Below, in pieces: positions 3,141 through 44,343 of a stretch of DNA of 64,000 nt (within the stretch, counting starts at the first letter, position 1; each line of letters starts with the position of its first letter). The DNA is from Physcomitrium patens (lineage: Eukaryota; Streptophyta; Bryopsida; Funariales; Funariaceae): contig NC_037258.1 of NCBI RefSeq assembly GCF_000002425.4, positions 17,596,470 through 17,660,469 on the forward strand. The letters run 5' to 3'. Under the pieces are notes generated by a model, which saw only the letters and a list, made by a program, of their open reading frames with translations, searched no databases and had not been told where the DNA came from. Made by a program: the position numbers and the translations under genes.

Positions 3141-3995
3141 TTAGTATTTTATTCCAAAATTTAATGTGCCTTTTATATATCTCATAGTTCTTTTCAAAGT
3201 TTGAATATGTGTAGGTCTTGGTTTAAAAAGATATTGTGCTAAACTGCTAGTAGCACAAGCAGAATCAAATCTAGAATTAACAATGGCATACATTAAACTA
3301 TTAACAACTTGAAAATAGAGGTAATTATGGAAAGTAATGTGATCTTCATTACTTAAATAAATTTTTGATTGAATTGGGGTACTTAATGGATTGAAATTCA
3401 ATATATTGAATTCATTAAGTTTATTTGTTAAGTATTTGGCTTGATGGAGGATGATCCATCCTTCTTTTCTATTTCTGAGTATAACATTACATAAAGTATA
3501 ATGGATTTCTCTTTCATCAGATATGTCAAATTCTTGCTAGAGAATATCTTTGATTTGTTGAATTAAAGGAAGTTTATTGCTCATAAGTATATAGTCATCA
3601 ACATAGAGTATAATTATGATAAAATCCTTATTATTTTCTCTTTTGATATATATGTTTGCATCTGATTCAAGGCATTGGTATTTGTGAAGGATTAAGTATT
3701 GATTTAATTATTGATGCCATGCTTTAGATGATTGTTTAAGATCATATAGGGATTTATTTAACTTATATAGCTTGTTAGTATGTATAGAAGGTAATCCTTC
3801 ATGAATAGTTATATAGATGTCTTCTTCTATAAAACCATTTAAAAATGTTGTTTTAACATCTAGTTGATGTATTTCCAAATTATGTTGAGCAATTAAAGCA
3901 AGAAAAACTTTGATAGAGTTAAGTTTGACTATAGGAGTGTATGTCATTGTGAAATCAATACCTTGAACTTGGATGAAACATCTTGCAACTAACAT
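3141..3995 (-). pseudogene. Copia reverse transcriptase domain, frame-broken
   Basis: The upstream half (3708-3995) contains the hallmark LEIHQLDVKTTFLNGFIEED and a KSLYDLKQSSKAWHQ segment. The catalytic YVDD tetrad is encoded at 3594-3605 and is intact, but stops and frame changes separate it from both neighbours. The downstream half (3141-3401) contains the conserved region around NPLSTPIQ and the SLMYAIVNSRFD block leading toward RNase H. It would copy element RNA to DNA in an autonomous Copia; here it is inactive by frame disruption. Confidence 0.88.
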
Positions 3996-5262
3996 TGCTT
4001 TATATTTGTCAATACTTCCATTAACTTTAGTTTTTATTTTAAAAATCCACTTTTAATTGATTGGTTTTTGATTAGGAGATAAATTTGTCATGTATCATGT
4101 ATTGTTCTTGTTTAAGGATGTAATTTCAGCATTGATTGTTTTTTGCTATTCTTAAACATCAACCCTTTTCATTACTTCTTGAATGGAGTTTGGAACTTCT
4201 ATATGAGTAGAAACAAGGTGGGCTTGATGATGCCAATTACATTATCGTTTATATTCTTTTCTGCCCTATATAGACTCTAACAATCTTGTGGTTGGTTGAA
4301 GAATTCTTGTTGGTCAAAAACAAGAAGGAAGATTTGGGGTTTGGAATGTAGAATAGACTTCATCATCTTCAAGAGGTAAGTTATCTTGATCATTTAGTAA
4401 TGATAGTTGAGAGAAGTCTTCTACGACATCAATGTGAGAAGGAGGTTGTTCTCTCACATTTGAAGAAGTACTATATATTTGGTTGTTGATCAAATACATA
4501 TGTTTTTTGTGGTGGTGGCATTGGTGGAGAAGACATGCCTTAAAAAAGAGGTATATTTTTTTCATTGGTCCTTATAGTTATTAAAGGATGTTTGAATAAT
4601 TCTAAATCTAGTTAGAGTTCTTTATTGTTCTTTTACAAGTATGTGGTTGTTTGTGGATTATATAGATTTTTATTGAAGATAACATCTCTTGAAATAAGAA
4701 TTTTTTATCTTTGTGTATTTATAAGTCTATAGGCTTTAGATTCTTTACTATAGCCTAGAAAGATAGCCTCTTGTAAATGAGAATCTAACTTCTTTTTTCT
4801 TTTTTTAGAAATGAATGCATGAACTTTATAACCAAATATTTTAAGATAGGATAAATTTGATTGCCATTTGTACCATAATTTAAATGGTATTTTGATAACT
4901 TATACAGATTTTATAGGGCTCCTATTTTGGAGGTAATTTGTTGTTTGAAGTGCTTCACCCAAAAAAAATTATGTAAGTTTGAATAGGATAGCATTGCAAG
5001 TACTACTCTTATTAATGTTCAATTTTTTTTTTTTCAAAAACACCATTTTGTTGTAGTATATAAGTTGTAGTATATTCTTGTTTAATACCTTCTTTATTAC
5101 CAAATCAAGTCATTAGATGTATATTCACCTCCATGATTAGATCTTAATATTATGACTTTGAAACTTATTTATTTTTCTACAATTTTTTTATATAAGATGA
5201 ATTTTTCAAATACTTTAGATTTATATTTCATCAAATATACTTGGCAATATCTTATTATTTCA

Positions 5263-5520
5263 TCAAAAATTTGTAATGAAGTAAGTACATTCTGAATGTG
5301 TGCCTACTTGTATAGGACCACAAATGTCAGAATGTATAAGTTTAAACAATTGGATAGCTCTTTGTGTACCTTGTGTAGGAAACTTTTCCTTATATTGTTT
5401 ACCTTCTATGTAAGGTTGGCATAAGATAAATTTTCTTTCATTAAAAGGTTCAATTTCCTTTCCCATAGTTTGTATTTGTTTGAGCCTTTGAGGATTTATG
5501 TGTCCTAGTCTTAGGTGCCA
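5263..5520 (-). pseudogene. Copia GAG-pre-integrase zinc-binding and integrase start
   Basis: The minus strand from 5520 reads WHLRLGHINPQRLKQIQTMG, the His-rich GAG-pre-integrase motif. It is followed by a Cys-containing ILCQPYIEGKQ and then LFKLIHSDICGPIQVG, which carries the first catalytic Asp of the integrase core. The rest of the integrase (about 4000-5260) is only patchily readable through many stops. This is standard Copia pol organisation between protease and reverse transcriptase. Confidence 0.85.
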
Positions 5521-5703
5521 TAAATCAGCTTTATTTAATTGTATTGTTGTTGAAATAGCAATTTGATGCTTGTTTAAAAGTATTGTTGTATCTAATTCAT
5601 ATAAATCAAGGTTTAATTTGTATATTGCAATGGTTTAACCAAATTGTTTTATAAGTGTAATGGTGCTAGCTCTTATGTGAATTTCTCTTCCTGTCTTATC
5701 TAA

Positions 5704-5937
5704 TTATTTGGCAGAGAATAAATTCTTTGCAAGTCCCGGTATATGTAATACATTAGGTATGATCTTCTCATCACCATTTGTAAGTTTGATATTTACATCA
5801 CCATGTCCTACTATTACGTATGATGTAGTATCATCTCTTAAGTAGACAACTTGTTTGTCTTCACTTTTGATGTATTTAACAAATCGTTCTAATTCATGAC
5901 ATATATGTTGAATTGCTCCCGAGTCTACGCACCACAT
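5704..5937 (-). pseudogene. Copia aspartic protease
   Basis: Contains the catalytic DSGA signature in MWCVDSGAIQHICHE, followed by the usual Copia protease spacing to NVLHIPGLAKNLFSAK, a conserved block at the protease/GAG-pre-integrase boundary. The open stretch is about 77 codons. In an active element this protease matures the gag-pol polyprotein; here the adjoining frames are interrupted. Confidence 0.85.
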
Positions 5938-5969
5938 TGAATTTGGATTTTCTTTAACTATAAGTACTA

Positions 5970-6281
5970 CTACATATAATATATTTGTTTTGTAATAACA
6001 TTTGTTTCTTTTCTATTATTACGATTTTCATTTGTTATTCTTATTTTGCAATCTTTGATCAAGTGACCTGATTTCTTGCAGAAAAAGCACTTTTTGTCAA
6101 TAGCAAAATTACTTTTTTCATGTGGTTTGGAGGTACTATTCTCTCCTTGAGAACTCCTTCTGAAACTCTTATTAAAATAAGATTTCTTATTTTTATTTTG
6201 AAATTTCTTACATACATATAAGGTTGAATTATTATTAGATGTTAAACTCATGCTTTTCATGAGTATTTTTTCATGGATCAA
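5970..6281 (-). pseudogene. Copia gag fragment with CCHC zinc knuckle
   Basis: A minus-strand open frame of 103 codons ends in a lysine- and asparagine-rich tail and carries a CX2CX4HX4C zinc knuckle, CFFCKKSGHLIKDC, encoded at about 6048-6089. That is the nucleocapsid-type RNA-binding motif of gag. The N-terminal part of gag lies in the broken sequence at about 6282-7110. Confidence 0.85.
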
Positions 6282-7127
6282 ATCTGTTATTAAGGATGCT
6301 AATGTGATCCCAAGCTACCTTCTTAAGGAGCTAATGAAGGATCTATAATTTTGAGGCAAACTTTTCATTAAAATAAGAATTGCTTCATCATTTGGAATTG
6401 ATAATCATGCTACCAACAATTATTCCATATGAGCTCTAAAAGTATATATGTGTTTAATAACACTATCAACTTCTTTCATTTTTAAGGTATATAATTTTTC
6501 TTTTAAATACATCTTAGTTACTACATTATGTGATTCAAATATTTTTATTAATTCTTACTATGGTGAATTTGTTGATTTACAAGATTGTATATGTGAAATA
6601 ATATTATTTTCTAGGCAATTTTTGATTATGGTTAAAGACAAGGTATCCTTGTCTACCCATGTGCTTATACTCTTACTCCTATGGTAGGTAAAGCTGAGAC
6701 TCCAGCAGCAATTTCAGCTATTATTGGTTCCATTGGTAAGCATTCTTCACTACTTACTATGGACCATAGCTTTTCAGCCTTGAAAACTAATGTTAATCTA
6801 TGTTTCTATATATTAAAATATAAACCATCAGATTTTGGAACATGATTGATGTCCACTTTTTGTGTCATCTTCAAAATTCTTAATTTAAAGTAGAATTGAA
6901 ATTATTTATAAATTTATTTTTGATCAATTCAATTTTATCTTTGCTTATGGATTTTATGTTGCCATTTTCAGGTCTATAATTGCTTCTCATGGTTTGAAGA
7001 ACTTCAAGTTTCTATTATAATGAATTGTATTGATATTATTCTTATTATAAACTATTTTGTAATTTCAGCAATTCTTCTTTTAATAAAGCATTCACCAAAG
7101 CTTTTTCTAAGAATCAAATTTTCTATT

Positions 7128-7139: not shown

Positions 7140-7309
7140 TGTTGGAAATAATATTATTATTAATATGATCAATTGATATACAATATATTGTGTGTACAAG
7201 GATGACGCCAAGAGTCACAACTCTTGATGTAAGGTCAATACAAAGTAGATAGTATTTTATATAGGAGACTAGTATATTATATAGTATAATTCTCCCAATA
7301 CCACCATCT
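7140..7309 (-). repeat. 5' LTR of the Copia element, with TATA box
   Basis: Homologous to 1695-1862. Read on the minus strand it starts near TGGTATTGGGAGAATTATA and ends TTTCCAACA next to the primer-binding site. A TATA-like motif, CCTATATAAAATAC, lies at about 7254-7267 and is the likely core promoter of the element. The outer half is the founding unit of the 85-bp array. Confidence 0.82.
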
Positions 7310-7745
7310 TGGTGTAAGGTCAATACAAAGTAGATAGTATTCTATATAGGAGACTAGTGTACTATATAATATAATTCTCCCAATACCACCATCTTGGTGT
7401 AATGTCAATACAAAGTAGATAGTATTCTATATAAGAGACTAGTGTACTATATAGTATAATTCTCCAAGTACCACCACCTCAAAGTGATTTATTCATTACT
7501 CTGCCAAACTGGCGGACTGAACATGGAACACAAGTGAAACCGAGTAGACCGAGTTGTCTTCCTCACAGATTGAAGTGGTCATCCGTGATTGAATGCATTC
7601 ACAAGTAGATAGTATTCTATATAGAAGACTAGTGTACTATATAGTATAATTCTCCCAATACCACCAGCTTGGTGTAATGTCAATACAAAGTAGATAGTAT
7701 TCTATATAAGAGACTAGTGTACTATACAGTATAATTCTCCCAGTA
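7231..7745. repeat. 85-bp tandem repeats derived from the LTR promoter region
   Basis: Units begin at 7231, 7316 and 7401 with AAGGTCAATACAAAGTAGAT (third copy AATGTC...), an exact period of 85 bp. Two more copies follow at about 7598-7675 and 7676-7745. Each unit carries the TATATA-containing LTR segment and ends with CTCCCAATACCACCA or a variant. The 3' LTR has only one such unit, so the expansion happened at this end after, or independently of, insertion. Confidence 0.88.
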
Positions 7746-7877
7746 CCACCACCTCAAAGTGATTTATTCATTATGCTGCCAAACTGGCGGATTGAGCATG
7801 GAATACAAGTGAAACCGAGTCGACCGAGTTGTCTTCCTCACCGATTGAAGTGGTCATCCGTGATTGAATGCATTCAC
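7471..7877. repeat. 275-bp tandem duplication spanning LTR and flanking DNA
   Basis: A block starting CCACCACCTCAAAGTGATTT at 7471 recurs at 7746, an offset of 275 bp. Both copies continue through CCAAACTGGCGG, GTGAAACCGAGT and GTCATCCGTGATTGAATGCA to about 7600 and 7877. In the first copy the flank then runs back into LTR repeats at ACAAGTAGATAG, whereas the second continues into unique GC-rich DNA. The copies differ at about ten positions, so the duplication is not recent. Confidence 0.88.
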
Positions 7878-8740
7878 ATGTATGAGATGGAACGCTGCTT
7901 CAACACGTGGACAGGGTATCTACCCCAGTTAATTGACCAGTTGGATGATAGCAGAGACTATTCACCGGATTTTTATTTATTTATTTATTTTTGCGTGAGT
8001 CATCGATTTCAAACGACTTCAACAATCACCAACAAAGTCTATGTGCTCGTTGGAAGTGGGAGGGAAGTGTCGGTCGTGTCGAAGCCCTGGAACAAGTTAC
8101 ATCACCAAGTGGAGGGGACCTTCTCTCCGGTAAACGATACCTAGCAACGAGGCAATATACGTCAAACACCTGTGAGCATGAAGCTATGCAACGGTAATCT
8201 GAATGACCGGCGACAGTAGATGATATAACTTGCGCTCACTATCAGGGATTCACAGAAATTCGGACCCCACCAAACGGCTCCAGAATTATAGCCTTGTGAA
8301 TGACACCGAGATCTACCTGGCAGACAGCAGTGGAATCACGTTGCCGAAGTGCAATAAGTGACGATTGTTAAACACCTCATGTTCTGCAGCTCTGCGCTAC
8401 TCCTTCTCTTCATTGTCGTCGTCATCTTCGTCTTCGTCTCGCTGTGTCGTAGCATGTTGGCCGCGGGTGCACAAGTTGCTTGTGCTTGTGCCATGGATTC
8501 ACCGCCACAACTAGCAAGATCAACAACTTGATGGTGCAGTCCAGCTCGGCACCCGAAGCCCAGGTCCACGTCCCTTGCTACGCTGTGTTTGGTCCGATGT
8601 TAGACGACCCCGAGGATGCATGTCGGTGAAGCGTGTCAGTGAAGGTTGTCGGTAATCCCTAGTGAGCCTATCGGAAATGCTGACCTGACGTGTCGTGGGG
8701 CCTTGCATCTCAAGTATTGCCATTTGTGAGACCATTTTAA
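7878..8740. other. Orphan GC-rich block, no gene recognised
   Basis: The composition changes sharply to roughly 50 % GC between two very AT-rich tracts. Several overlapping open frames exist (for example plus strand 7773-8144, minus strand 8336-8569 and 8520-8735), but none shows a domain, a consistent intron pattern or codon evidence that I can support. It resembles the composition of the gene islands further right, so it may be a gene remnant or a displaced 5' region. A short TTTA run lies near 7972-7990. Confidence 0.5.
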
Positions 8741-12489: not shown

Positions 12490-13301
12490 TAAAGCCGTTG
12501 TTGCATCTATTGCTTCGTTATTCCAGTCTCAAGCTGTGTGTTTTTAGCCTGCCTGCCTGCCTGCCTGCCTGTCTCTGTATACCAAGTAGGGTTTCCAGCT
12601 TCATCGTCTGCGTTGCTGAAGTCAGCTGCTGAATGTTGCCTCGACGCTTCCGTGTTTTTGGTGAGTTGGGGCTGCTGGTTGTGGTTTGGGAGACGGAATT
12701 GGAAGGGGTATTGGGAGGTCGTTGTTCGTGGTTGTGCTGTAAGAAGGGTCCAGAGATTCTAGGGCTGGTGGAGTGCACAGCCATTGCAGTGCGATAGTTC
12801 GGTACCGTCACTTGGATGCACCGAGTATTTGCTTGCGAATGTGTTGTTGTGTGGACGGAATGTGATCGTTTGAATTGTTGTGGAATGGATCTGAGTACTT
12901 TGAAATTCTTGTCTCGTTTATTTATCAATTGTCATGCGTGTGCAAACCAGGGGTTGGTTGGTTGGAAATGGAAGAGCAATGTGAAATTGATAACACTAGA
13001 AGCAGCACCTGGTCCATTTCAAGACTGCTCCAGGCGAACGGAGAGATGGGCACTTGAAATAGACTTGTTTGATCCGAGAGACCATGTGATTTGAGGCTTC
13101 TTCCGAATAATGCAGGTTTCAAGTCACAAGCTTAAGTCAATACGCTTCCGCTTGGCTGTGGAGACATGTACACCCTAACCGACACGCGTAGGAATTCGGG
13201 GATGCAGGAGAGTAGAAGTGATCAATAGGTAGATGCATCCATAGACAGGAGGAAGATAATTCCTCTGTATCTAGGAGTAACGTGGTTTTAGCAGTCAAGC
13301 C
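12490..13301 (+). promoter_or_regulatory. Probable promoter and 5' leader of the NOT1-like locus
   Basis: A GC-balanced stretch directly upstream of the first NOT1-homologous codons, containing a TGCC/GCCT microsatellite at about 12547-12571. No homology to NOT1 is visible and short upstream ATGs are frequent, so I read it as an untranslated leader plus promoter. No clear TATA box was found. The transcription start and any leader intron cannot be fixed from sequence alone. Confidence 0.4.
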
Positions 13302-14614
13302 ATGATTTCGTGTGGATCACCCCTCGCAGCTCAGATTGGTTTTCAGGCTGCTAATCTGAGCAAAGACTATTACAAATCTGTGGCTAAGGAGCTCTATGAG
13401 GTGCTTATCTTTTCTGAAACGAGGGCTGCCGGGAAGCAGGCAAATAAAATTTTCATATATTCTATTACGAAATTGCCTTGAGCAAGTCAATTTGGCAGAG
13501 AATGATCAAAATCTACAAGTGAAACTCGATTTGTTGGCACTTGTTCTTCGAAATTTGATACACCAGCCCAATTCTGGGACTGTGTTATGCGAAGCTTTGC
13601 GAAACCTCCCATGTGTTAGTGAAGAGTTTTTTGCTAACCTGTGTAGAGCGCTAAAGCTTTCCTTGCCGGAGCAAATTGCTCTTGGAATTGCTCTTGCAGA
13701 CGCAGAAGATATTAGTCAACGCCAACAAGGTAAGCTCTAGTGAGGATTTTCTATTGCCTAGTAGGCTGAGTATGGATTTTCTATTGCCTGAAAACTTGCA
13801 ATGGAGTAAGTGGTAGGGTTTCTGTGTTGATTGAGAATTGATGAAGGGGCGAACGAAAGCGTTTGTTTTGGATTGGTGGCGTGCTCTCCATGTGCTCATG
13901 GTAGTTTATGAAAAAGGGCACTACCGTCTGTTCCACTGCTATTTTCACAATGTACAGTGTGATGCTCAAGTGATCATTATGGTTAATGTTAGATGTAAGA
14001 GGTTCTTCGAATGAGTGTTTCACATTTATTGGTTCTCGTACGTTTTTTGTTTTTTGTTTGTTTTTGTTTTTGTTTTTGTTTTTTTTTTTTTTTTTTAGTA
14101 TTTTTTATAATAACATTTAAAGCATGTTGTTTGTAATTGTTTTTCTGAGCTTGCAGGTCAAGCTTTTTTTGAGACGAAGGTTGAGGAGTGGTGTCAAAAT
14201 CCTATATCAGATTTGTCAGAAGATTTGATTGAAAGAATTTTATGGTGTCTGTTCTCAAATGAATCACTTCTGAATCTCCAGTCTTCCTTTTTTTAATTCC
14301 TTGTCTGCTTTGCAACCACTTGCATTTGACTCCTTGACACTCACTCCCTTTCTTAAGGATGCCGTCAAGGAAGTGGAGTGCTTAAGGTATAGTTCCTTTC
14401 TCTCTCCAGTTCTGGAATTGCTGTGCTCTACAATCGCTACTGTGATGTTGTTTAAAGTTAATGTGCTTTCTGAACATGGCTCGCATAAAGTGAGTTAGAG
14501 GAGGTTCAGAGCATACATGGGCCATTCTGTAATGTAATTTGCAGTGGAGAGCCGATATCTTCAAAATTGAGCACTTGGCACGTGGACATTGTTTAGGGTG
14601 CTATTAATCAACTG
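13302..14614 (+). pseudogene. NOT1 N-terminal blocks (exons 1-3), multiply broken
   Basis: The first block starts at ATG 13302 (MISCGSPLAAQIGFQAANLS, then KDYYKSVAKELYE) and later reads LLRNCLEQVNLAEND in another frame. Between them about 28 nt are extra relative to plant NOT1. The exon ends at 13729 and rejoins correctly at 14157 (GQAFFETKVEEWCQNP). A run of seven T near 14285 shifts the frame to an immediate TAA; the alternative frame restores NSLSALQPLAFDSL up to a donor at 14387. The block 14545-14614 matches the ...SSWNVD... region but contains TAG at 14594. Only about 158 bp separate these last two blocks, too little for the roughly 100 residues expected there. Confidence 0.75.
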
Positions 14615-14980
14615 GTGAGCTCCTGCTTTCTTTCTTTTCAATGCTGAGAATTTTCGTACAATCGATTTACTCAGGTAGTCATATCTCATAGTTATCTTTA
14701 TATGGCGTCTACTCTGTAGTTGCTACCTGTTTAGCGAATTCTCCTGTAATTGGTTCTTTCAGTGTCTCTTCTTTTTACCTTAGAAGGATTGAAATAAAGT
14801 TTGTAACGAGGATATGACTATGAGGGTGATACTAACAAACCTATTGAATGACGTCAATTTGGGGGGGGGGGGGGATGCAGCATACTTTGTTACAATTTGA
14901 TGCTCAAATTATTTACATTTTACAAGAATGTTCTAATGCTGTATTTTGATAGTATGTGACAACGTTAATATGTGTTTCAG

Positions 14981-16864
14981 AACCCGAGTTTGAATTGGAG
15001 TTTGATAGTATCGAGGCTAGATTACGAGGGTTTTTATCTGCCCGATGAAAACGCCTTCATTCTATTCATGACTATGTACAAACTGGGGTGTGAGGTAAGT
15101 TTCATGTGTGAAACGATATTTGATCTGTATTACATGTTTTTTGCACATAGATTTTCTTACTAGATTGGAGAACTGCATGTATCGGTGAAATCCCGGACTT
15201 GGTATAAATGTCGCATTATATTTATTCTTTTTGTGAGCAGGATCCTTTTCCTATCGATGCTATCTGTGGCCATGTGTGGAGAAATGATGAGGGCCAATTG
15301 TCTTTCTTGAGACATGCAATTTTATCGGCTCCAGAGGTTTTCAGTTTTGTTCATTCGACAAGGAAACTGGTACGCTTCAATTATTTTTGTAGTTCTTACG
15401 GTGAATACATTGCTAACTATGTTGAAACAACATCATGTGTCATTACCATCCTTTTGGTTTTAAGTAAGTGAAGAGATTCACACCGTACATATGTTTAGAA
15501 TTTTATCAGGGACTGAACCAGGTACTTGGAAGTGTGTGCCCATTATTAATTGTCAAACAGCAATGAATGCAAGGACCTGTGCATGGTAGTGACGTTTGTT
15601 GTTTCTCAGACTGAATATGTTTTTTGCGCACAGCCCACAGTACATCTTTGTCAATTCTCTTAGTGGTTGTCCTGGTTGGCACTGGCAGATGGAGACTTCA
15701 GAGAGAAAGTTGAAATCACCCAACTATGCCTGGCTTTCTCTAGATCTGGTTGAAGTACTTTGTCGCCTTGCAGAGACGGAGCACGTTGATGAGATTCGGG
15801 AGATTTTGGAATTTCCACGTCACCACTGTCCAGAGCTTCTGGCTCTGAGTCTTGTGCAGATCAACAGTGATGTATCTTTGAAGGTATGTTATTCTTAACC
15901 CTTGTATGATGCAACGGTGCACTGTCACTTGCCTGCACCTTAGGGACTATAGGGTCTTTGAAGGAGCTCTGTTTACACCTGTATGCAGCCACTTTTCGTG
16001 GTATAACCAGTATCTTTGATTATTACTATGGGAGTGCAGGGATCTCAACAAAGCTTTCAAGAGGAAATGCTTTCTCGGATACTTGGACCATTATTCTCAC
16101 AAGTTACTCTCAGTGCCGAGGGGGAGACTCTTGATCCTTTGTGGAGTAAGCTTTGGGCTTTGAACCCAGAAATTTTGAAAATGGAAATGGTGAATCTCCT
16201 CTTCTCGAAGGATCACTCTGTATACGACCAGGTCTTGCAGGTCTGCAAAAGCTTGAAGTTTTATTAGCGTTTATATAGCCTCCATTGAATGTTTTTAGTT
16301 AACATTAGTGATTTAACGTAATGAAACATGGATCTTGCTTCCTCTCTCGCTTTTTATAGGTGATCTTCTTGGCAGATTGTAGCACTTCAGGGTTTCTTTT
16401 GAACTTGTTGACAACTTTTTTGTAAAGTTTCATATTACCGTATGTGCTGGCCGTTGAATTCATATTTACTGAAATTATTGATGTCAATGAACTCATGTGT
16501 TTCTGCATGTCCTCAGATGTTCTCGTTTGCAATACAAGCATTGGATTCATTTCGTGAACGACTAAGCGAGTGGCCTGAATTCATTTACCATATTCTAAAA
16601 GTACGGCACATTCATGAAGCCCAGAATGACATTCTAGACTACATTATGAACATAGTTAAAGAAAATCAGGCAGTTGATCCAAGTACAGCTGTTAATGATT
16701 CTAATGTTTGCTCTGTGGTAGCACGTCCGATAATTGTAAAAGCCCCGACGAGCCTTTTGCAAGATACTCAAGTTGGAGTTCGCAATTTGAAATCAGCGGT
16801 TGACTTTGTCTATCCAGCTGGGAATAGGTTCTCTGGCTCTCAGTCACGATATCTATCAGGACAG
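14981..16864 (+). pseudogene. NOT1 HEAT-region exons 4-8, with a large gap
   Basis: Blocks at 14981-15094, 15241-15369 (DPFPIDAICGHVWRNDEGQL), 15689-15883 (AWLSLDLVEVLCRLAETEH), 16040 to about 16258 (LWALNPEILKMEMVNLLFSK) and 16517-16864 (SEWPEFIYHILKVRHIHEAQ) match plant NOT1 in order. Between the VCKSLK end near 16258 and the block at 16517 plant NOT1 normally has about 200 more residues, including the first MIF4G-like/TTP-binding part. The 258 bp present here contain no such exon. The donor after VCKSLK is also unclear. Confidence 0.72.
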
Positions 16865-17056
16865 GTGGGTGATGAATCATGCATGGGGAAATTAGAGACT
16901 AAAGCTGTTAGTTTTATGATTGTAGAAAACTTCTAGGGTTTTACGTTATTTTTTTACAATGATATGTAGCTTCTGATCTTTGTGCTCTCTTTTCCTCATT
17001 GTCGAGGTACTCCAGTTTCCTTGGTGGTCCTTACAATTGTTTGGTTCATCTTTTAG

Positions 17057-20000
17057 GGTTTAGATTCTTTTCTTCAAATATCTGCTAGGAGTTTCTCGTC
17101 AACGGCCGAGGCACAATCGCAGAACAGTACTCAGTCTGTTCCACAAGCATCTTTAGATTCCTTGTTATCGTTACAGTCAGGATTTGGCACAAATTCTCAA
17201 TCACCCTTTCAACCAATATTCCGTGCTACATCTGTAACACCTACACAATATCAACCTTCTCAACCCTCAGCTGAAGAGACGGCTAACAATGTAATGTCCG
17301 ACGCACAAGCGAAGCAAAGTGCGATCACTCCAAGCTCGCAACCCAGTCGAACTACTGAGACAGTAGTGTCATCACAGCATTCAAGTGCAGAGGCTACCAG
17401 CCTTTCTGCAGCAGCTCGTGATTTTCCTTTTTCAGCAGCCTCAAATGGTCACACAGCAAATCAAGCTCACATTCGGACTGGCACGAGGTCTGGAAATGCT
17501 TCAGGTGAGGCGATATTCGTATCAGTGCTGTATTTTGAATTTTATATAGTATGTGGTTGAGTATATTCCCATGGAACTAGGTTTAACGTTATGTTCGAAT
17601 CGGTCATCTTGAGCATGTTGAAACAAACGAATCACCTTCTAGCAGTGAACTTCCATTTCTTGTAACTCATTTGTAAGTGTTTGTTTTAGTACACGGAAAG
17701 ATGGGCCTGATTATCATCCCACATTACACTTTCAACCTAACTTGTATGTTCATTGGTAATTACCAGCCGTGCTTTCGATCATTCTTACTGCCCTTGGCAA
17801 CGTTTGTTTAAATTGTTTGATATATCAGGCTCATTTCGCATAGCTATTTCTGGATTTGGACATGCTCTTAACATAGAGACCCTTGTTGCTGGTGCTGGTA
17901 AACGGGACAAGCCTATTGAGGTATTTTACTTATACGCAATAGTACGAATTCTTACTTGCATGTGGAGACGTACTGAAGCTCCACTTCGTTAGCTGATATT
18001 CGGTCTATCTACTTTGAGATGTGTATATTGTGTACGCCCAACAATTGACTAGTCACTTTTGTTCCAAGTTTTAATGTTTTGATAATTGGCATCTGGTCAT
18101 TGCTTTGCATATCGTTAATTTTTCAGTAGATTTCGGCAACTTTTTCCATTTTTGTTTCTGTTTTTCTCAGGCACCAAGTTCAGAGATACAGGATAAAGTA
18201 GCATTTATAATTAACAACATATCTTGGACGAATCTGGAAGCTAAAGCGGAGGAATGTGCTGAAATTTTGGAAGAGTACTATCCATGGTTTGCCCAATACG
18301 TTGTGATGAAAAGGTAAGCATAGATTTTCTTTTGTTTGTCATGTGCGCCCTTGCAAGACTTTGTTATTTACAAATCAAGGCACTCCTTCTGGGTCAAGAA
18401 AAAGCTTCTTTCTGTTCCTGGTATGACAATTGTATTTTGATTGACAGAGCAAGCATCGAACCAAACAATCATGACACGTATATCAAATTTTTAGACAAGA
18501 TGGATTCAAAGGAGTTGCACAAGGAAGTTCTCAGGACAACCTATGAAAACTGCAAGGTAAAAGCTTGAAAGAACTTTTAACTTTTTGGTGCACTCTGGTT
18601 AATAAAACATGTCAAGTATGCTGATTTTTGAAATTTTAAATACGCTCTTGTAACTTACTGCTTTCCTTTGGAATGTGAGTAGATCCAAGTGTTCCTAGGT
18701 GTCCCTAAAAACGACGTTATCATGCTGCTTGAGTCTGCAGTATAGGTATGTTTTGGAAAATTTCTTACTATGGGGCATTTTTTTGCCAGGTATTATTCGC
18801 CTCCAACTTGATTAAGACTCACTCGGAGGAGAGGTCACTTCTGAAGAATTTAGGAAGTTGGCTTGGAAAGTTAACCATTAGGCGGAATCAAGCATTGAGA
18901 GCCCGCGAACTTGACCCGAAGTCTCTAATTATCAAGGTACTTTTGACATCTGAAACTCAAGCTGCATAAGCTGCTTTTGTTTCATTAGATTTATGTGTGT
19001 AATCAAGTGGTGCTCCACATGCATTTTAGTAGAAACGGCTTTTTCTGGAACGTTTTGAATCACTCTTACAATTCTTTTGTTTTCACCTAATTTTTTGGAA
19101 GGTGTTCAAAATAAGCTTCCTCAGCATATATGGCGTGCATGAGCTTTCGAAACTTCAAACGTTGTGGATAGTTATTTTGTACTGTAGTCAGAGGCTGATC
19201 CCTTTTCTATTGTTTAACAGATTACTCGTGTCGTAATTAGATAACTTTGAATGAATCGTCAATGTTTATGATGAAGCTGTTCATGTCACTAATCTGATGT
19301 GAATGATGTTTACCTCATTCCTTTTGTGTGCAGGCATATCAGAAAGGACTTATGATTGCAATAATTCCATTTACATCTAAGGTGCGAATTGTTAGAGCTA
19401 GTCACATGTCTTGAATAGGGAAATGATTGAGAATGAAAATACAATCTTGCAAAATGAGTACTAATGGAGTCTGAAGCATAAATTGATACGGTTCCTTGAG
19501 ACAACGAATTGTCGGGCTGCAGAATTGTAGTATGTTGTTTTACAATTTGTATTTTCTTCACTTCATACGTCTTTCACAGGTACTGGAGTCCTGTAACCAG
19601 AGTCTGGCTTACCAACCTCCGAATCCATGGACTATGGCAATACTAAGCTTACTTGTGGAGATTTATAACTTACCTAATTTGAAGATGAATCTCATGTTTG
19701 ATATTGAGGTAATGTTTCGACACAGGTTCTTACCATTTGAAATCTGATTCTTCTAAAAATGTATGTAGTCTGCATGGAATCTCTAGCCCTTCAGGTTTTT
19801 ATATACTTATTAATTCGTGATAAAATTATATGTCTGCAGGTTTTCATTTGCACATGTTAATCGCTGTTTTAATTTTTTTTCGACTTGGCTTAAGAAATTT
19901 CAACTAATATTTTTTTTCTAACATTTTCAGGTTCTTTTCAAGAATCTAAATGTAGACGTGAGGGAAGTAAAGCACTCGAAGCTTCTCGAGGGACTGGAGC

Positions 20001-20578
20001 GTGAGGTGGAAGGGAATCCTGATTTTTCAAACAAGGATCCAATATTTTCCCAGTCACCGTCACCAGCCTTGTCGGCAAGCAGTTCTGCACCTACTGTGCC
20101 TGTACCATCTCTACCTCAGCAGTTGGACATGCCTCCTGAACTTCCGAGTGTCATCCAGCCTGCCACATCATTGACTTCATCGGTAATTGCACAGGTTTGT
20201 TTGCTGTGGGCGTTGCTTCTGCAACTATAGACGTTTCTTTTTTTAGTTTTTGTATTATCTCCTTCATGATCCAAGAGGCTTTTGTTCACAAGAGGTGTTG
20301 TTTTCAGTTAATTGGGGAAGAAAGACCATCACTTGCACTGGAGCGCGCTCAGAATGTTCAAGCTTCGTCTACTCCATCTCAACCATCGTTCCCGTCCACT
20401 CAAGTACGTTATCTCCGTCAGGAATTTCTGTTTGCTGCATCTTTTTTGGGTATGTTTGTGGTTTCGGATGCTGACATAATATTGTTGGACAGGCGTCTAT
20501 GGCAATTCCTGATTTGACATCTTATGTTGTTCTAAATGCGAAATTAGCTGGACTTGGTCAACATCTCCAGCTTGCGAG
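17057..20578 (+). pseudogene. NOT1 central blocks incl. CAF1-binding MIF4G domain
   Basis: A Ser/Gln-rich low-complexity exon (17057-17504) is followed by the CAF1-binding domain spread over exons at 17829-17920, 18171-18313 (DKVAFIINNISWTNLEAKAE), 18448-18556, 18790-18936, 19334-19381 (AYQKGLMIAIIPFTSK), 19580-19708 (YQPPNPWTMAIL) and 19931-20194. Then come 20308-20403 and 20493-20578. All borders have GT and AG and the phases join without stops, so this part still looks functional. In the family it recruits the CAF1 deadenylase. Confidence 0.85.
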
Positions 20579-20805
20579 GTACATACATTAATGACTCTTA
20601 TTTTTATCAGTTAGTATGAAGCAATCATTTAATCAACTTCTGAATCTTCTCAGAATTGACTTCAATACACTAGCTTGAATTAGACTTTTGTAACACAGTA
20701 TTGACTGGATAGTATTAATTCACTGAACTACGTACTACGCTAGACTGTGAGAATTGCATTCATGCAGCGTTTAAACTGAAAAATGAAGCATGTTTTGGAT
20801 TGCAG

Positions 20806-21564
20806 GGTTGTTCCTGTGGCCATGGAGCGCGCTATTAGAGAGATTATAAGCCCAGTAGTAGATCGTAGTGTGACTATTGCTTGTACGACTACTCGGGAGC
20901 TTGTGATGAAGGTTAGTTCTATATCTTTCTATTTGGGTGTTTGAATAATACATCCGGGGAGTGCAATACGAGTAAAACTAGGTACTTCTGCCTTAATCTA
21001 TTGTTGCATGCAGAAGATAAGAAGTAAGGATTATCCACAGTAGCATGGCACAATATTTGACTTTGCGCTCTCCTATCGAATTGTCTCTAATCTAATGTTA
21101 TTTTCCTGTAAGATTATGCAATGGAATCGGATGAAAATCGCACGAACCAGTCTGCTAATTTGATGGTAGCTAGCCTGGCTGGCAGTTTGGCCCATGTTAC
21201 CTGCAAGGTATAGCACAAGAGCTTTGACGTTCAGGTCCCTTGCCTCTGTAGTGATAGAAGTAGTAGTTTTGAGCATCTGTTTGCAATTTTTTATGATGTG
21301 CACTATCGTTTATTACTTGAATTACTTTCAAGTTGCTATTCTCTTCTGAATTCTGATTTTTAAATGTAATGCCAAAGAACTCGTCGCCTCACTTGTTGCT
21401 TGTTTCTTTGGCAGGAGCCTCTGCGAGTTGCCATGGCAAATTATTTGAGAACTTTTCTGCAGACAGCTCTCGCCCAAGATGTGCTAGAGCAAGCTGTAAA
21501 TTTAGTCACAAATGATAATCTGGACTTGGGTTGTGCCGTGATTGAGAAATCCGCAACTGAGAAG
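20806..21564 (+). pseudogene. NOT1 DUF3819 (CNOT9-binding) blocks with a lost splice acceptor
   Basis: The exon 20806-20911 reads VVPVAMERAIREIISPVVDR and ends TTRELVMK. Family members continue K-DYAMES. Here the matching sequence is preceded by ...CCTGTAAGATTATGCAATGG, so the expected AG before GAT (21110-21111) is AA. The nearest AG, one base later, shifts the frame. The exon body to 21207 (LMVASLAGSLAHVTCK) and the next exon 21415-21564 (NLVTNDNLDLGCAVIEKSA) are otherwise conserved. Confidence 0.8.
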
Positions 21565-21714
21565 GTGTGGTTCCCATCTTGGTACATTGGGGATTAGTTT
21601 TCAGGTTATGAGAAAATGATGTGTGTTTTTAATTGCAGCTGATGGAAGCTATCAAAGATACTCTCTTTATTATTTGCTATAAGGAATGTTTATGTTACTA
21701 TGGAGTGTTGACAG

Positions 21715-23191
21715 GCGCAACGGGATTTAGAAGAGGTGATTGCACCCGCCTTCGCACAGCGAAGAGCCGACAGAATACGCACGGGTTCTGCTTATCATGA
21801 TAATTATATGTTTACAAATCAGACTCTAAGTAATCTTCCTGAGACCCTGCGTCCAAGACCAGGACAATTATCCATTACACAGGCACGGGTGTATGGGGTA
21901 TGTGTCAATATTTTGTAATTTATGTAACTTTTTGAATGCTGTGATCTCAAAAGTCCTGTGTGAAATGCTCTTTGCTTTTATCACATTTACGTCTTTGCTA
22001 TTTCGAACCGAATGTAACTCCATGTTTGTTGATGTGAATTGATTTTGGTAGGATTTTAGATGTTATTCATTGGGTCGTCGCATTCAGGACTAAATATTAT
22101 TCTGTTGAGTTCCGATGGGTTGTTTGTTGGCAGGATTTTGCTCGATTTCCTTGGCAGAATCAGTCAAGTCACGCACCTGTAACGATGGCAGGTCCTCCAG
22201 GTATCACTAATCTTTCAGGGAGAGGCATTTATTCTGTTCCAGGTCGTGACCCTGGTGCTAATTCTCGTGCGTCATTGAATGGAAATCAATCTTCATCAGT
22301 ACTTGGAGCAACGGCTCAAGTTTCAGATCCATCATCTGATGAGATGGACATTACAGAACCATCTCCGCTAAGGTTTGCTTCTATAGTATTTTGTCTTCAC
22401 AGAAGTTTTCTTCTAGTTCTCATTTAAATATTTAAGTGAACAGGGACTGTATATAATTGTAGCTTGAAAGAAATTGTATCTTCAGTGATGGTTTAAGATC
22501 AACCTTATGATATGGGCGTAACGCATTGAGTCGTATCCTGTATCATTACGTGGTTAGGGATCTTGAATTTTCTCAGAAAATTGATACCAAGTGGCTTGTG
22601 TGCTCTATTTCATCGTGCAGTTTCAGCTCGATGGCTTGTGCTGGTGGAGCGGACGCACAAGCTAGACTCTCTCAAGAGACCTCCCTCTCCTTCCCCATAC
22701 ATTCCAATTCATCAACTCCGCCTCCAGAATTCAATGTGGTGGAGACCCCAAGTGCCTCGAAGGTATGATGGTGATTCCTTCATTTCAGGATTTGAAACCT
22801 GTGAAGCAGGGCAGAAGAATCGTATTATAAGGTGGTAGTTTTAAAAATTAAAAAGCGAATTATCCTACATTTTTTTCTTTTCCGTTGTGAAATTGTTCGT
22901 CACCTGAATAAGGACTGCAGGGTATGCTGGGATCTACACCGTCTTCTACGCCACCTTTGCCTGCTGATTATGTTGGATCTACTGCGCAAGAGCCTTCTCT
23001 AACCACTGGAGAGGCTTTGGAGAAGTTCAGTGTAGTGGCACAAAAGGTATGCTCAACGGCATTCACTTGTGGAGGCAGGTAGCATGAATATTATATATGT
23101 CTACTATTAACAAGCGACTTGGTTAGTATGCACTGTTAGTTGGTATTGTTATAGATTACCAGAGTGATTAACCAGCTAGGTTACTAGAAAA

Positions 23192-23279
<88 letters not shown>

Positions 23280-25240
23280 CCACGAGGGTGTTCAAATACC
23301 TTGAGTTTATGAGGGTGTGATGCCATCAAGTCTGCAGCGATGTTTGCCTGAAAGCCCAGGTTTCACGTACAGATGGTTATTCCCTACTGAGGTGATCCCT
23401 GTGTAGTTGTTGATAAAATTTACCTACAGTGAAGTTTGTGGTTTAGGGTAACGATTTTCTTTGATCTGGTAGAGAGCCTGACAATGGTGGTGGTTTTCAG
23501 TTGGATCTTTTACTCTTAAGGGCAACCTCGTTTAGCTCTTCGTCTCCTCGCTTGATGATGAAGTGCGGGTAGGACTTGCAAGTTCATGCTTTATACTGTA
23601 TTTAATTAATTGAGTTGAATATATGAAGTGTTTTCAGGTTTAATTCAATTGATATTAAAAAAAAGTCGTGTTTGGGTTTTACATCTGATGTGGGGTTTCC
23701 TTTGCAGGCCCTGGCAAACGAGGTGCCCGAAATCATTTTGCAGTGCGTTAGTAGGGACGAGGCAGCTTCAGCAATAGCTCAGATGGTCAGCTGCGGATTT
23801 AAACCTGGAGACTTATGTGTGCATGATACTGTTTGAAACCGTTGCAGTTCGTGGTGGTGCGTCACATGTGTATCTGTCTAATTGATTGAGTGCTTTTTTG
23901 GGATTAGGTTTTTAAGCGTCTATATGACAACACTACCAGCCAAATACATGTACTAGTCCACCTCAACATCCTGGAATCCATTCGAGACGTGTGCAGGAGA
24001 GTGGTCAAGGAATTGACTAGCTGGGTAATTAAAAATCTTTCTTCCTTTTGTAAATTGCTTGTGTTATTAATGTCGATCCCACATAATGGTGTTAAAGGTT
24101 TGATCATATGAGCAGTCTTGATTGAGTGTTTTCTATGACATTATTGTGAAATTCGTGTCTATGCTTGACATCAACGTTCTTTTGTTTTCAGGTTGTCTAC
24201 TCTGATGAGGATCGCAAGTTCAATCGGGAAATTACTGTTGGTTTCATCAGATCTGAGTTGATCAATTTGACAGACTACGGTTTGCACCTGACAAAGTGTA
24301 TTGATGGAGGCCGGAACAGTAAGCTTCATATCATCGTTGAAAGCCCTGGTGGATTGGTAACTGCTGTTTTACTTTGTGTCTCCTATACCTGTTGGGTTTC
24401 AAGAGATGATGAGCCCACGGTAGAATTGAGCCAATAATCACCTTATTTTTCTCGGCCCAAGACAACCTCTAATCTGGTGTTCATTGTTGTGGGATACAAA
24501 GCGTGTTGGGATTTCAAACTTATGAATTTCAACTGCATTGTGCAGATGACGCAGTTTCTTTTGCAGCGTACCTCGTGAAGACGTGTGTCATTGAAGAGGC
24601 AGGTGTTACTAGCACAGAGTTTTACAATGTGATCGAAGCTCTTGGGAAGGTGAGCTTTAGCCTTGCTTTTTCACTCCCTGAATTGACGTGTAGATTCTTA
24701 TTGGAGTTCAATCGTGATTTATGTTGAGCCACAGTTATTTTATCCTAATCATAATCACTGCTAGTTTGAGGCTCACAGTATTTCTATTTTATTTTTCATT
24801 GCGGTTGCAGCTGGCAGCACGACCAGGCACTCCTGAGTCATTGCAGGAGTTGGTGGAAATTGCAAAGGGCACACCAAGTACAAACAAAGATGATAAAGGC
24901 AGGCTATCTAAAGAGAAAAAGGTGTGGCTTCTTTCTGCAGTGACTTAATTAAATTTATTAAATTAAAGATCTCATCATCACTTTATTCATAGATTTTTCA
25001 TTTGTAAGACAAGAAGCTTCTTGTTGTTCTTTTCTTTCGACATCGTATCATATTTGTGTGTCGATTCGTAACTTTTCCCACTTTGGATTGTTTGAATAGG
25101 AGTTGGCTGAGAGTCATTGTTTGAACTCGGAGACTTCACACCCTGTCACTGTTGGAAGCGAGTCCAGGCTGCAAGAAGGATCAAACATGTCATTTGCAGC
25201 CATTGATATGGTTGCAAAGCTTGTTGTTTTGTTGGTGAAG
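21715..25240 (+). pseudogene. NOT1 linker and C-terminal-half blocks, with one lost segment
   Basis: Exons at 21715-21897 (LPETLRPRPGQLSITQARVY), 22134-22372, 22621-22762, 22921-23046, 23501-23568, 23708-23785 (EVPEIILQCVSRDEAASAIA), 23908-24024, 24192-24318, 24546-24649, 24811-24921 and 25100-25240 follow plant NOT1. In 23501-23568 the first half reads LDLLLLRATSFSSSS, but the LDDEVR end is in another frame. Between 24921 (SKEKK) and 25100 (ELAESHCLNSE) roughly 70 residues normally present (the ...FREQV...LLKGDD... region) are absent, and the gap is only about 180 bp. Confidence 0.78.
23199..23280. repeat. Long (TA)n tract inside a NOT1 intron
   Basis: A nearly uninterrupted TA dinucleotide run of close to 80 bp, bounded by GCAA on the left and TTGC on the right, so the whole block is a palindrome. 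It lies in the intron between the blocks ending at 23046 and starting at 23501, next to the frameshifted exon. Confidence 0.9.
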
Positions 25241-25549
25241 GTAAACTACTCAAGAGTTTAACCTTGTGTCCTTTGTGTTGGTTAATTTTGCTTCATTTCT
25301 TTCTTGTATTTCTACTTGTGCTGCTCATGGAATTCTGACCTATTCATCCTGGCTAGTCCAGTGTTCCACGGTTCTATACCTGCATTATACTCAAAAAACT
25401 GGGAATATTGTGTTAATGTCATTGGATGGTATTGAGCTGATTAATTCTACAAAGTTACATGGACTTCGAGATTGTGTGTACTTTATTATTTAGTTCCAAG
25501 GATTATTTTTCCTGTACTTTAATTCTAATGCTGGTGTGTTGGTTTTCAG

Positions 25550-28381
25550 TACTCATCTGAGCCATCCCTGAATAAGGTCAATCTTCTTACTAGGGTAAGT
25601 TTAAATCTCGATTTCAATCTCATTCAACGGAGGCTTTATCCTATTCATATTTTGTTAGGCTTAGCAAATAACTTTGCTATGATTAGTGTATCTTGAGATG
25701 TCTGGTAGAGTCTTATTTTGACGCACTTACGGTCGTGTTGTATCACCAGGTTTTAAACGTGACAGTCCGCACGATGAAAAGGGACCATGACCGCAAAGCA
25801 GGGTTCCATCCTCGCCCATACTTCCGCCTCTTTGTCACATGGCTTATGCATTTTAATTTAACAGATTCCACCTTGGATTCAAGTAATTATCAGGTATTGA
25901 GGGGATCTGTCGTTTTATTTTCCTTTTCCAGTTCCCGAAAAAGAGAAAGCCTGTTTCATTCTTGCATGTGCAGTATGATTGATTTTTGACGAAGTTTTAT
26001 TTTGCAGGTTTTGCAAGCTTTCGGATATGCATTTTTGACTTTGCGACCGCTCGATGTGCCAGGGTTCAGGTATGCGCGACGCTCGTATAATTTGGATTAA
26101 GAGAACTTTTAAAAGTTTGTGTTTTTCAGTATACGAAATGGTGATGCTTTTGGGGATTCCCGTGCAATGTTCACTGATATTATAATCCTATGTTTCTGTT
26201 AGTAGCTTGGCGTGGTTAGAGCTGATTAGTCATCGAACATTTATGCCGAAGTTATTGTTGAGCAACGCGCAAAAAGGATGGTCTTTATTTCAGAAGTTGC
26301 TAGTTGCACTATTCAAGTTTATGGAACCATATCTTCGAAATGCCAACCTAAGTGAACCTGTAAGTATGCATGCCTGAGCACGTAACTTGTTAAGCATTAT
26401 CGTGTAACTACTCCCCCACAAGCTTGCCAAGGTATCAAGACACTTGAGTTCCAAACAAATATACCAGCTGTGGGTGAACCATGCGCTGTTGCTTCATTTG
26501 GACTCGTTTAATATGACAGCTTCCTTTCCTTCCAACTATAATCATGTTTATTTGGTTGAGCTCAATGTTCTTCGATATGGGCTAAGCACGCACATTTTCT
26601 TGTATGTTCGGCTTATAATTTGTACATGTATCTTGTATGTCCATTCACCTGGGACTAAATCTGATCATATATATATAACCTGGTTTCGGCAGGTGCGACT
26701 GCTTTATAAAGGCATGTTGCGAGTTCTTCTTGTGTTACTTCACGATTTCCCAGAGTTCTTATGTGAACATCACTTCAGCTTTTGTGATGTCATTTCGCCA
26801 TCTTGCATTCAAATGCGCAACTTGATTCTAAGTGCGTTTCCTCGCAACATGCGTCTTCCTGATCCATTTACTCCCAATCTCAAAGTAAGACCCCGAGAAT
26901 TACTAACAGATGTAGTGTTTATTTGGGTTCTCTACTTCAAGCGCGACTTTGGCTTTGTTATTCTGTAAACCGTTTACGTGTTCTGACAACTGGAAATGTT
27001 TTGAAATGATTAACGTGAGGTGTTACCGTTTGAGATTAACTAGCTCTTGTTTGTCATTTGGGGGTTCTAGGTTGATTTGTTGCCAGAAATATCTCATTCA
27101 CCTCGTATTCTCTCAGATGTTGAAACAGCGTTGAAATCGAAGCAGCTGAAAAGCGAGGTTGATGATTTCATTAAGGTAAGCATGAGTGTTAATTCTAAAA
27201 AATGGCAAATACAGCGCAAATAGACGCCCTACGCCTCAGTAACTTACATATTATCTAACCTCTTCGAACTTGAACTGAGCAGAACCGGAATCAACAAACA
27301 CTCACATCCATGGACTTGAAGGTACGATTGACTCTGTTACCTCAGGAGGCGCAAGCTTCTGGCACACGCTACAACGTGCCTCTTCTTAACGCTTTGGTGC
27401 TTTACGTCGGAATGCAGGTATAGCAGTGGCGTTTTTGTGGATCTTGTCAACAAATTCAATGTCTTGAATTGTTTTGACCTGAGTGTCGTCATGTTAGATA
27501 TGTGGAAGTCTTTGGTTTTGGTCAAAAGTAGCGTATACAGTGCATGAAAGTATTGTATCAATGCTGCTCTGATTTATTATAGACGTTTAGTTTCTAAGTA
27601 GTTTGATCAAGTTTCTAATCACTAAAGACGACTCTCTTGTGAGTAGGCTATTCAGCAACTTCATAGCAAGACATCACAGCAGGTGGCAGCACTCACGGCT
27701 CCTATTACCCACAGCGCTCCAATGGACATATTTGAGCTACTTGTCAATGACCTTGACACCGAAGGGAGATATCTGTTTCTGAATGCTGTGGCCAATCAGC
27801 TGCGCTACCCCAACAATCACACATATTATTTCTCGTGTGTTCTTTTATTTCTCTCTGCTGAGGCATTAGTAGTAAGTACTCTTCCTCTGCATTCAAGCCT
27901 CTGGCTTTATTTACGATAGCCGAACACGTTAGTTTCACGTTTGAGGGATCAGTGCTAAGTGCTCACATTTACGCTTTGTGTTACGTTTTCAGGACATCGT
28001 CCAAGAGCAGATTACTCGTGTGCTGCTGGAAAGATTAATTGTCAATCGGCCACATCCTTGGGGCCTTCTTATTACCTTCATTGAGAGCTCATCAAGGTAT
28101 ATGCTTGTCTACATTGTTAATAGGCAATCATGCAACCCTTAATTTTTTTGCTGGGGTGAAGCTATGTTGAATGTGTTGAGTTTGTGAATTTTTTTTTGCA
28201 ACACTGACTAGTATGTGGCTTTCAGAATCCACGTTACAGCTTTTGGACACACAGCTTTACACGTGCTCCAGAGATTGAAAAGCTATTTGAGTCAGTGGCT
28301 CGATCATGTATGACTACTACATTGAAATCTAGCGATGATGATCTGTCCGGAATTCCTCCAGCTGACCGCCTGAAAGAGTGA
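25550..28381 (+). pseudogene. NOT1 C-terminal domain (NOT2/NOT3-binding) blocks
   Basis: Exons at 25550-25594, 25750-25893, 26008-26069, 26203-26359, 26693-26884 ([20 protein letters not shown]), 27071-27175, 27283-27417, 27647-27871 ([20 protein letters not shown]), 27993-28096 ([20 protein letters not shown]) and 28226-28381 give the superfamily-homology domain almost completely. The only visible lesion is near 28086: family members read FIELIK-NPRY, while here GAGAGCTCATCAAG has two extra bases and breaks the frame before the last exon (NPRYSFWTHSFTRAPEIEKL). The stop is TGA at 28379-28381. Confidence 0.82.
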
Positions 28382-43308: not shown

Positions 43309-44343
43309 ATGGGCAGTTGCGAGTGCGCGGAGTCCTCCCTGTCGAGTGCAATGACCTTGCAGGAGCAGCGGGAAATGTTGAGATCGGTGTTTCCTGGCCG
43401 GTGCAGCGACAACAGCCAGGACTACGAAGACGATGACGAAGGTAGGAACATCCAAACATGTCATGTATCGAGCCAGTTCGAGGATGCAATTAGATAGATG
43501 TCTATTACATAATTCTAATGGTATGTGAGAAGTAGAAAATGTTCGAGGCTCCTAAGCTTCAGAACTTTTCATAATCCTGTAATAGAAGCACTCTGAAGAT
43601 GGTGAAGAGCTGCATTTGCTGTGTTGGTGGAAAAACGCGAAGTCCCTAGCTTGACAGACGTAATGAATAGAGAGTATGCATCAGCCTTGTGCTCTCATTG
43701 AGTAACGCCACTTACAATTAGCGCTGGATATGGGGTTAAATAACGCTAAGGAGCTACCAGAAGCCACGATCGATAATGAGCGAAGCCTTAGATTTTGTGT
43801 GTATGTGGGGGGTGTTCAGGATCCAGCCAGAAGTTGAGATTTACGAAGGCCCAATTGCGTGTGCTGGAGGATACCTTCCAGAGGCTGCAGCGGCCAAATG
43901 CGCACCAGAAGAGCACGCTAGCGATGGAATTAGGCGTCCAGACTAGGCAAGTCGAGGTGTGGTTCCAGAACCGCAGAGCCCGAGGCAAGGCCAAGCGCAA
44001 CGAGTCTGACTGTGAAGTATTACGGCAGCGCTGCCAGGACCTGATTGTGGAGAATCACCATCTCAACTACCTGATTCAGGTACATTTGTACCCACCTGCG
44101 CATCCAATGCTCTCTATCTCTCTCCCTTCTTCCAAGAGAAGTGTATTCTCGTTTCTGTTAGAAAGGAGGTTGCACTCGCTACGAATGTGCTGTAAGCGAC
44201 AAGGTCATCCTCATAACTCGTGTGGTTGCCTCTGACCGCAGAGCGAAAGGATGGGCTATGACAGCCGCCACCTAACAAGCAACGGCGGGCCGTTACTGCG
44301 GATGGCTCTATGCAACAACTGCAAGAAGCTCCGCAACTCATGA
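43309..44343 (+). CDS. HD-Zip II-like homeodomain leucine-zipper transcription factor
   Basis: Three exons, 43309-43441, 43820-44079 and 44242-44343, join in phase with GT..AG borders to a 164-residue protein. The acidic N-terminus (DYEDDDEG) leads into a homeodomain at about residues 46-106 with KLRFTKAQLRVLEDTFQ and the recognition-helix core VEVWFQNRRARGKAKR. A leucine zipper follows directly (SDCEVLRQRCQDLIVENHHL), with three leucines spaced by seven, the HD-Zip arrangement. The DCE..L context and a final Cys pair in ALCNNCKKLRNS resemble the HD-Zip II CPSCE tail, but the motif is altered and the zipper is one to two heptads short. The family represses or activates growth genes as dimers on CAATNATTG sites. 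Subfamily II is an inference; an early-diverging or shortened member is possible. Confidence 0.82.

Follow-up and report, generated by a model that had tools for sequence, protein, structure and literature searches.

The NOT1 locus and its lesions

NOT1 is the scaffold of the mRNA-shortening machine CCR4-NOT. Here, we describe a NOT1 locus of the moss Physcomitrium patens, which lies in a window of 64,000 nucleotides on contig NC_037258.1 (C6, positions 17596470-17660469) of an assembly that comprises 101 contigs and 470 Mb. Two P. patens EF1-alpha primers quoted in PMC6001459 have exact matches in this assembly, one on C2 and the other inside the same 3-kb locus; as EF1-alpha is conserved, they agree with P. 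patens or a close relative without being proof. On the plus strand of this window, positions 13302..28381 (C6:17609771-17624850) are annotated as a NOT1 pseudogene, hereafter called the relic, which runs from an ATG to a TGA aligned with the stop codon of an intact NOT1 gene on contig C5 and which aligns to that gene over its whole length. An earlier note on this DNA had described a full-length, intron-bearing NOT1 relic at these positions; the homology, coordinates, introns and lesions were all confirmed, for a gene that is near full-length. Exon numbers and lesion calls derive from the alignment to the C5 gene and from a frameshift-tolerant spliced aligner, and the gene models of the relic, the C5 gene and a further NOT1 gene on contig C21 were built from sequence alone.

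The relic retains 43 of the 49 exons of the C5 gene in their original order, 41 of them in full extent and two (1b and 3) truncated, in agreement with the approximately 42 exon blocks counted previously. Introns sit between the retained exons, except intron 1, which is mostly deleted; they are common to the C5 gene and partly alignable, with an identity of 61% in gap-free intron columns and of 82% in exon columns (first exon set). With its introns present and common to C5, the relic is not a processed copy, in agreement with the earlier note. Approximately 1,174 of the 7,563 coding nucleotides of the C5 gene are missing, which by arithmetic corresponds to about 15% of the coding length.

Four pieces of the relic were scanned with Pfam, i.e., exon 3 (after its stop codon) to exon 7, exons 8-19, exons 20-25 and exons 31-40, while exons 1, 2, 26-30 and 41 were outside the scan. 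Exons 8-19 matched CNOT1_CAF1_bind (PF16415, E 1.5e-84) and the start of DUF3819, and they also contain the 51-residue end that alone remains of the TTP-binding domain (PF16417). The remainder of DUF3819 was found in exons 20-25 (E 1.9e-29) and the Not1 domain (PF04054, E 1.9e-126) in exons 31-40; the piece from exon 3 to exon 7 gave zero Pfam matches. The E-values of the Not1 and CNOT1_CAF1_bind matches show that the NOT1 homology is not due to chance. Like NOT1/CNOT1 proteins, the relic possesses the CAF1-binding, DUF3819 and Not1 domains, and it has its exon structure in common with intact C5. In contrast to them, it has lost the greater part of the TTP-binding domain and is disabled by nine lesions.

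These lesions comprise four deletions, three frameshifts, one stop codon and one lost splice acceptor, and they replace the previous count, in which the frame was broken at least five times and three segments were missing. In exons 1a and 1b (13302..13729), a 179-bp deletion at 13458 removed 30 nt of exon 1b together with the intron 1 acceptor, and exon 2 (14157..14386) contains a +1 frameshift within a T run at about 14286-14294. Exon 3 is reduced to a remnant (14494..14614) by a 374-bp deletion at 14493/14494, by which the acceptor and the first 217 nt were lost, and this remnant is interrupted by an in-frame TAG at 14594. Exons 4-7 (14981..16258) form an open frame that ends with the loss of the exon 7 donor; the junction of a 1,864-bp deletion follows at 16258..16259, with four exons and most of the TTP-binding domain gone. 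The open frame of exons 8-19 (16517..20911) holds the CAF1-binding MIF4G domain. Next to it, the acceptor of exon 20 (21110..21111) is destroyed by a change from AG to AA in the alignment to C5, and exons 20-25 (21112..23046) provide a further open frame with the end of DUF3819 and a linker. A +2 frameshift is located at 23549-23553 in exon 25b (23501..23568), exons 26-30 (23708..24921) are open, and a deletion of approximately 715 bp (458 + 257 in the alignment) at 24927-24962 removed two exons. Exons 31-40 (25100..28096), which encode most of the Not1 C-terminal domain, show a +2 frameshift near their end at 28080-28084, and the last exon, exon 41, occupies 28226..28381. Frameshifts set by the aligner at 13401, 14490 and 16419 and a second stop at 25097 correspond to deletion edges or intron sequence and were kept outside the lesion count. 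Two candidate lesions were rejected by the alignment to C5: exon 25b, once considered missing, is present and frameshifted, and the lesion of exon 20, once considered a 1-base loss, is an acceptor substitution. An (AT)39 microsatellite was observed at 23200-23277, in the intron before exon 25b, and none was seen at the corresponding place in C5.

Before the paralogue comparison, the losses looked frame-neutral. A reference-free model, guided by angiosperm NOT1, placed them exactly at exon borders and in frame, with GT..AG at 40 of 40 introns, as would be compatible with a short, exon-skipping but working NOT1 gene. The alignment to C5 shows instead that exons 1b and 3 were truncated by the deletions, that exon 7 lost its donor, and that some of the apparent borders are cryptic sites next to deletions or at the lost acceptor; the statement that most GT..AG borders are kept is therefore right as "most" and not as "all". 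Frameshifts and stop persist in this comparison. A working short gene is refuted for the full-length frame, and we assign it a negligible probability. Alternatively, an intact third NOT1 gene might have been corrupted by assembly or base-call errors. One frameshift does lie in a T homopolymer, and the 124-kb stretch made up of the window and its flanks contains 3,236 N. Nevertheless, read errors do not typically produce a stop by substitution, the loss of an acceptor, or four deletions by which six exons disappear entirely and two others in part; the models of the two other NOT1 genes in the same assembly need no such lesion, and the excess of replacement-site changes described below is independent of the lesions. 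Such errors are thus hardly credible as the explanation.

If the residual intron 1 is retained, the ATG of the relic opens only 59 codons. Lesions are moreover spread from the 5' to the 3' end of the locus, with some in its middle. No full-length NOT1 product is therefore expected, and neither spliced alignment nor Pfam on the four pieces revealed a continuous frame in which the NOT1 domains of C5 are present. Most likely, the relic makes no NOT1 protein, and we infer that its RNA is either not made or decays. Upstream of the ATG, positions 12554-12670 and 12919-13301 align with C5 (75% and 73%, respectively) and are perhaps a 5' untranslated region with an intron.

Intact paralogues and collinear neighbours

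A six-frame search of the assembly with the Pfam Not1 family returned 13 matches, and another that used the MIF4G portion of C5 as query returned 17; all of them fall on the same three places, i.e., C5, C21 and the window. As these searches score best candidates only, a far-decayed fourth NOT1 copy could escape them. The C5 gene is located on the minus strand at approximately 4599781-4581711 and consists of 49 exons that encode 2,520 amino acids without internal stops, and its protein matches seven NOT1-specific Pfam families. The C21 gene consists of 51 exons that encode 2,490 amino acids, also without internal stops, and all of its introns are GT..AG; three of them were set by hand, and so was the model between exons 8 and 10, where the aligner introduced a frameshift in a low-complexity part. 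The search for an intact NOT1 in the same genome, which the earlier note had proposed, thus yielded two open genes, and its assumption that NOT1 is a single gene does not apply to this moss. By their sequences, the two intact loci are anciently diverged from each other, and their presence in P. patens is more surprising than the relic itself. The available part of PMC10762896 (open-licence literature) does not treat moss NOT1 copies.

Downstream of NOT1, the window contains a homeodomain exon at 43822-44079 on the plus strand (Pfam Homeodomain), for which we use the label HD-Zip, and a LOB-domain open frame at 49802-50683 on the minus strand. Elsewhere in the genome, both have their best paralogues on C5, with HD-Zip at 4510679 (minus strand) and LOB at 4391454 (plus strand), and the order and relative orientation of NOT1, HD-Zip and LOB, three genes only, are equal on C6 and C5. 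These collinear neighbours suggest the duplication of a block, now present on C6 and C5, and not of a single gene. The block spans a longer stretch on C5 than on C6, and the portion of it that was examined is repeat-rich. A blastn comparison of 124 kb of C6 with 105 kb of C5, a stretch that stops short of HD-Zip and LOB, recovered repeats, the NOT1 region and sequence upstream of NOT1. Paralogues of HD-Zip and LOB are also found on C9, approximately 111 kb apart, and no NOT1 match was detected on C9 among the best candidates of the six-frame Pfam Not1 search. The HD-Zip-like exon has three close paralogues (C5 95%, C15 92%, C9 81%), perhaps a quartet that resulted from two rounds of duplication. 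The LOB frame and its C5 paralogue have diverged strongly (61% identity, dN 0.26).

Divergence, selection and origin of the relic

Codon comparisons excluded codons near indels and frameshifts, deleted parts and, for C21 versus C5, the poorly aligned C5-numbered residues 861-1040. This provided 2,023 of the 2,520 codons for the relic and C5, and 1,681 for the three-way comparison (1,680 in the maximum likelihood (ML) fits, from which the stop codon was dropped). The amino-acid identity is 81.4% between the relic and C5 over the 2,023 codons; over the three-way codons it is 65.1% between C5 and C21 and 62.0% between the relic and C21. In these comparisons, the relic is the sister of C5 NOT1. 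Changes polarised by C21 are more numerous on the relic branch than on the C5 branch at codon positions 1 and 2 (143 versus 83), and almost equal at position 3 (164 versus 168; Fisher P 0.0013 for the contrast between these positions). Among amino-acid changes, 96 fall on the relic branch and 43 on the C5 branch.

When both branches were given equal neutral time, i.e., under a clock, omega (dN/dS) was 0.104 for C5 and 0.197 for the relic, with a doubled log-likelihood difference (2dlnL) of 17.6. The elevation was observed in the MIF4G domain (0.117 in the relic versus 0.027 in C5, 2dlnL 5.3), the middle region (0.227 versus 0.082, 2dlnL 11.6) and the C-terminal domain (0.158 versus 0.060, 2dlnL 8.0). 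The C5 gene is by these estimates under purifying selection (omega about 0.10), which is weaker in its N-terminal part (0.31). If the relic had the omega of C5 until its loss and an omega of 1 from then on, the neutral share of its branch would be about 10% (6-13% in 40 bootstraps). Under a clock, the relic would have been constrained for long and relaxed late. Small exon indels between the relic and C5 are multiples of three in 6 of 9 cases (exon 25b included; the count leaves aside the 179-bp deletion, a 17-nt gap past the stop codon and a gap of 9 nt at 15647, which the C5 alignment assigns to an intron). Indels that mostly preserve the frame would be the pattern expected of a gene that was long in frame and broken late, although they are unpolarised.

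Several observations weigh against a late loss after the younger genome duplication of P. patens. The N-terminal 536 residues are not faster in the relic (omega 0.267 versus 0.309 in C5, 2dlnL 0.19). In a clock-free codon model, the branch of C21 sat at the bound of the fit and the synonymous root was unplaced, and an omega of 1 on the whole relic branch was not rejected (log-likelihood -14100.27 versus -14099.19, 1.1 units). Because C21 is saturated at synonymous sites, this fit accommodates both a late loss and a short branch that was neutral throughout, and for the same reason the parity at third positions is weak evidence. Finally, dS between the relic and C5 is 0.57 (ML) or 0.67 (NG86) for NOT1, and the neighbouring genes exceed these values (LOB 0.82; HD-Zip 1.39, 86 codons). 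Hence, the raised dN/dS of the relic against an intact copy, which the earlier note had suggested to estimate, stands under a clock, whereas the N-terminal region does not differ and the clock-free fit is undecided. The N-terminal region appears loose in both copies, and the other three regions do not look protected in the relic.

This regional pattern also bears on a transcribed relic with a regulatory role, whose RNA or partial protein, e.g., the MIF4G or the C-terminal block, would act on the C5 NOT1 mRNA or compete in CCR4-NOT. Joined readings of the relic contain long open blocks with strong Pfam domains (907 codons from exon 3 after the stop to exon 19, and 925 codons for exons 20-40), its exons share exact 21-mer matches with the C5 coding sequence at 84 positions, and alignment with C5 extends upstream of the ATG (73-75%). 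The joined readings, however, span deletion sites, and the longer one moreover omits an exon with a frameshift and disregards the loss of an acceptor. In addition, none of the three regions in which omega is higher in the relic than in C5 looks protected, and the N-terminal region shows no difference. A regulatory role is improbable.

The available portion of PMC9247546, citing Lang 2018, gives Ks peaks of 0.50-0.65 and 0.75-0.90 for the genome duplications of P. patens, with ages of 27-35 and 40-48 million years. The dS of NOT1 suits the younger duplication, but this assignment is not firm and the dS of the neighbours leaves room for the older one.

Taken together, the relic is, with high confidence, an ordinary unprocessed (duplicated) pseudogene caught during its loss. 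The idea of a duplicated NOT1 that is being lost was already contained in the earlier note and is upheld by the intact paralogues, the common introns, the collinear neighbours and the raised replacement rate. A large-scale duplication, most likely of the whole genome and possibly the younger one in Physcomitrium, would have doubled a divergent NOT1 of the moss lineage and the genes next to it. As the low rate at replacement sites suggests, both doubles may have remained under purifying selection for long. The C6 copy would then have lost its constraint, probably late, and accumulated its deletions, frameshifts, stop and splice-site lesion; the C5 copy remained intact. Unprocessed pseudogenes that arise by gene fractionation after whole-genome duplication resemble the relic in their retained introns, intact homoeologue, collinear neighbours and lesions. 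Nothing essential sets it apart from typical cases, except that the gene encodes a large core-complex scaffold in a lineage with a second, older paralogue in the genome. The relic shows that a moss was able to dispense with one double of such a gene once it had been duplicated, and the pair of intact homoeologue and relic has some value for work on the time over which redundant scaffold genes persist.

The older NOT1 split and other sequences of the window

The NG86 dS is undefined for C5-C21 and also for four of the six HD-Zip pairs (85 codons), so that saturation alone is a rough clock. When their N-terminal halves were used as queries, C21 outscored C5 on all 11 solved CNOT1/NOT1 chains found by both, although the same protein recurs in many of these chains, which do not amount to 11 independent tests. 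The bit scores of C21 and C5 were 340.9 versus 282.4 for 8fy3_A and 146.4 versus 108.0 for 4j8s_A, and the difference was only 3-8 bits for MIF4G chains. Because the synonymous distance between C5 and C21 is saturated and C21 is closer to the solved chains, C5 and the relic seem to represent a divergent NOT1 lineage that predates both duplication peaks, with C21 as the conserved copy. The divergence of the C5 lineage seems to be strongest in the N-terminal part. We tentatively consider that the moss may possess two anciently diverged NOT1 scaffolds and hence two kinds of CCR4-NOT, one with the conserved C21 protein and one with the divergent C5 protein and its loose N-terminal part; the relic would then be the dead genome-duplication twin of C5. 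Two old intact NOT1 genes in one moss would bear on the question of alternative CCR4-NOT scaffolds in plants.

Scans of the window with Rfam (gathering scores) and for tRNAs gave no matches. Fragments of a Copia-type retroelement with short broken frames lie at 3141-6314 on the minus strand, and RVT_2, GAG-pre-integrase and zinc-knuckle matches were obtained in three of their four open pieces. Positions 7222-7882 are occupied by tandem repeats whose units are 85 and 275 bp long, and a very AT-rich stretch (about 20% G+C) at 54976-62297 matches dispersed repeats near the C5 and C21 NOT1 genes.

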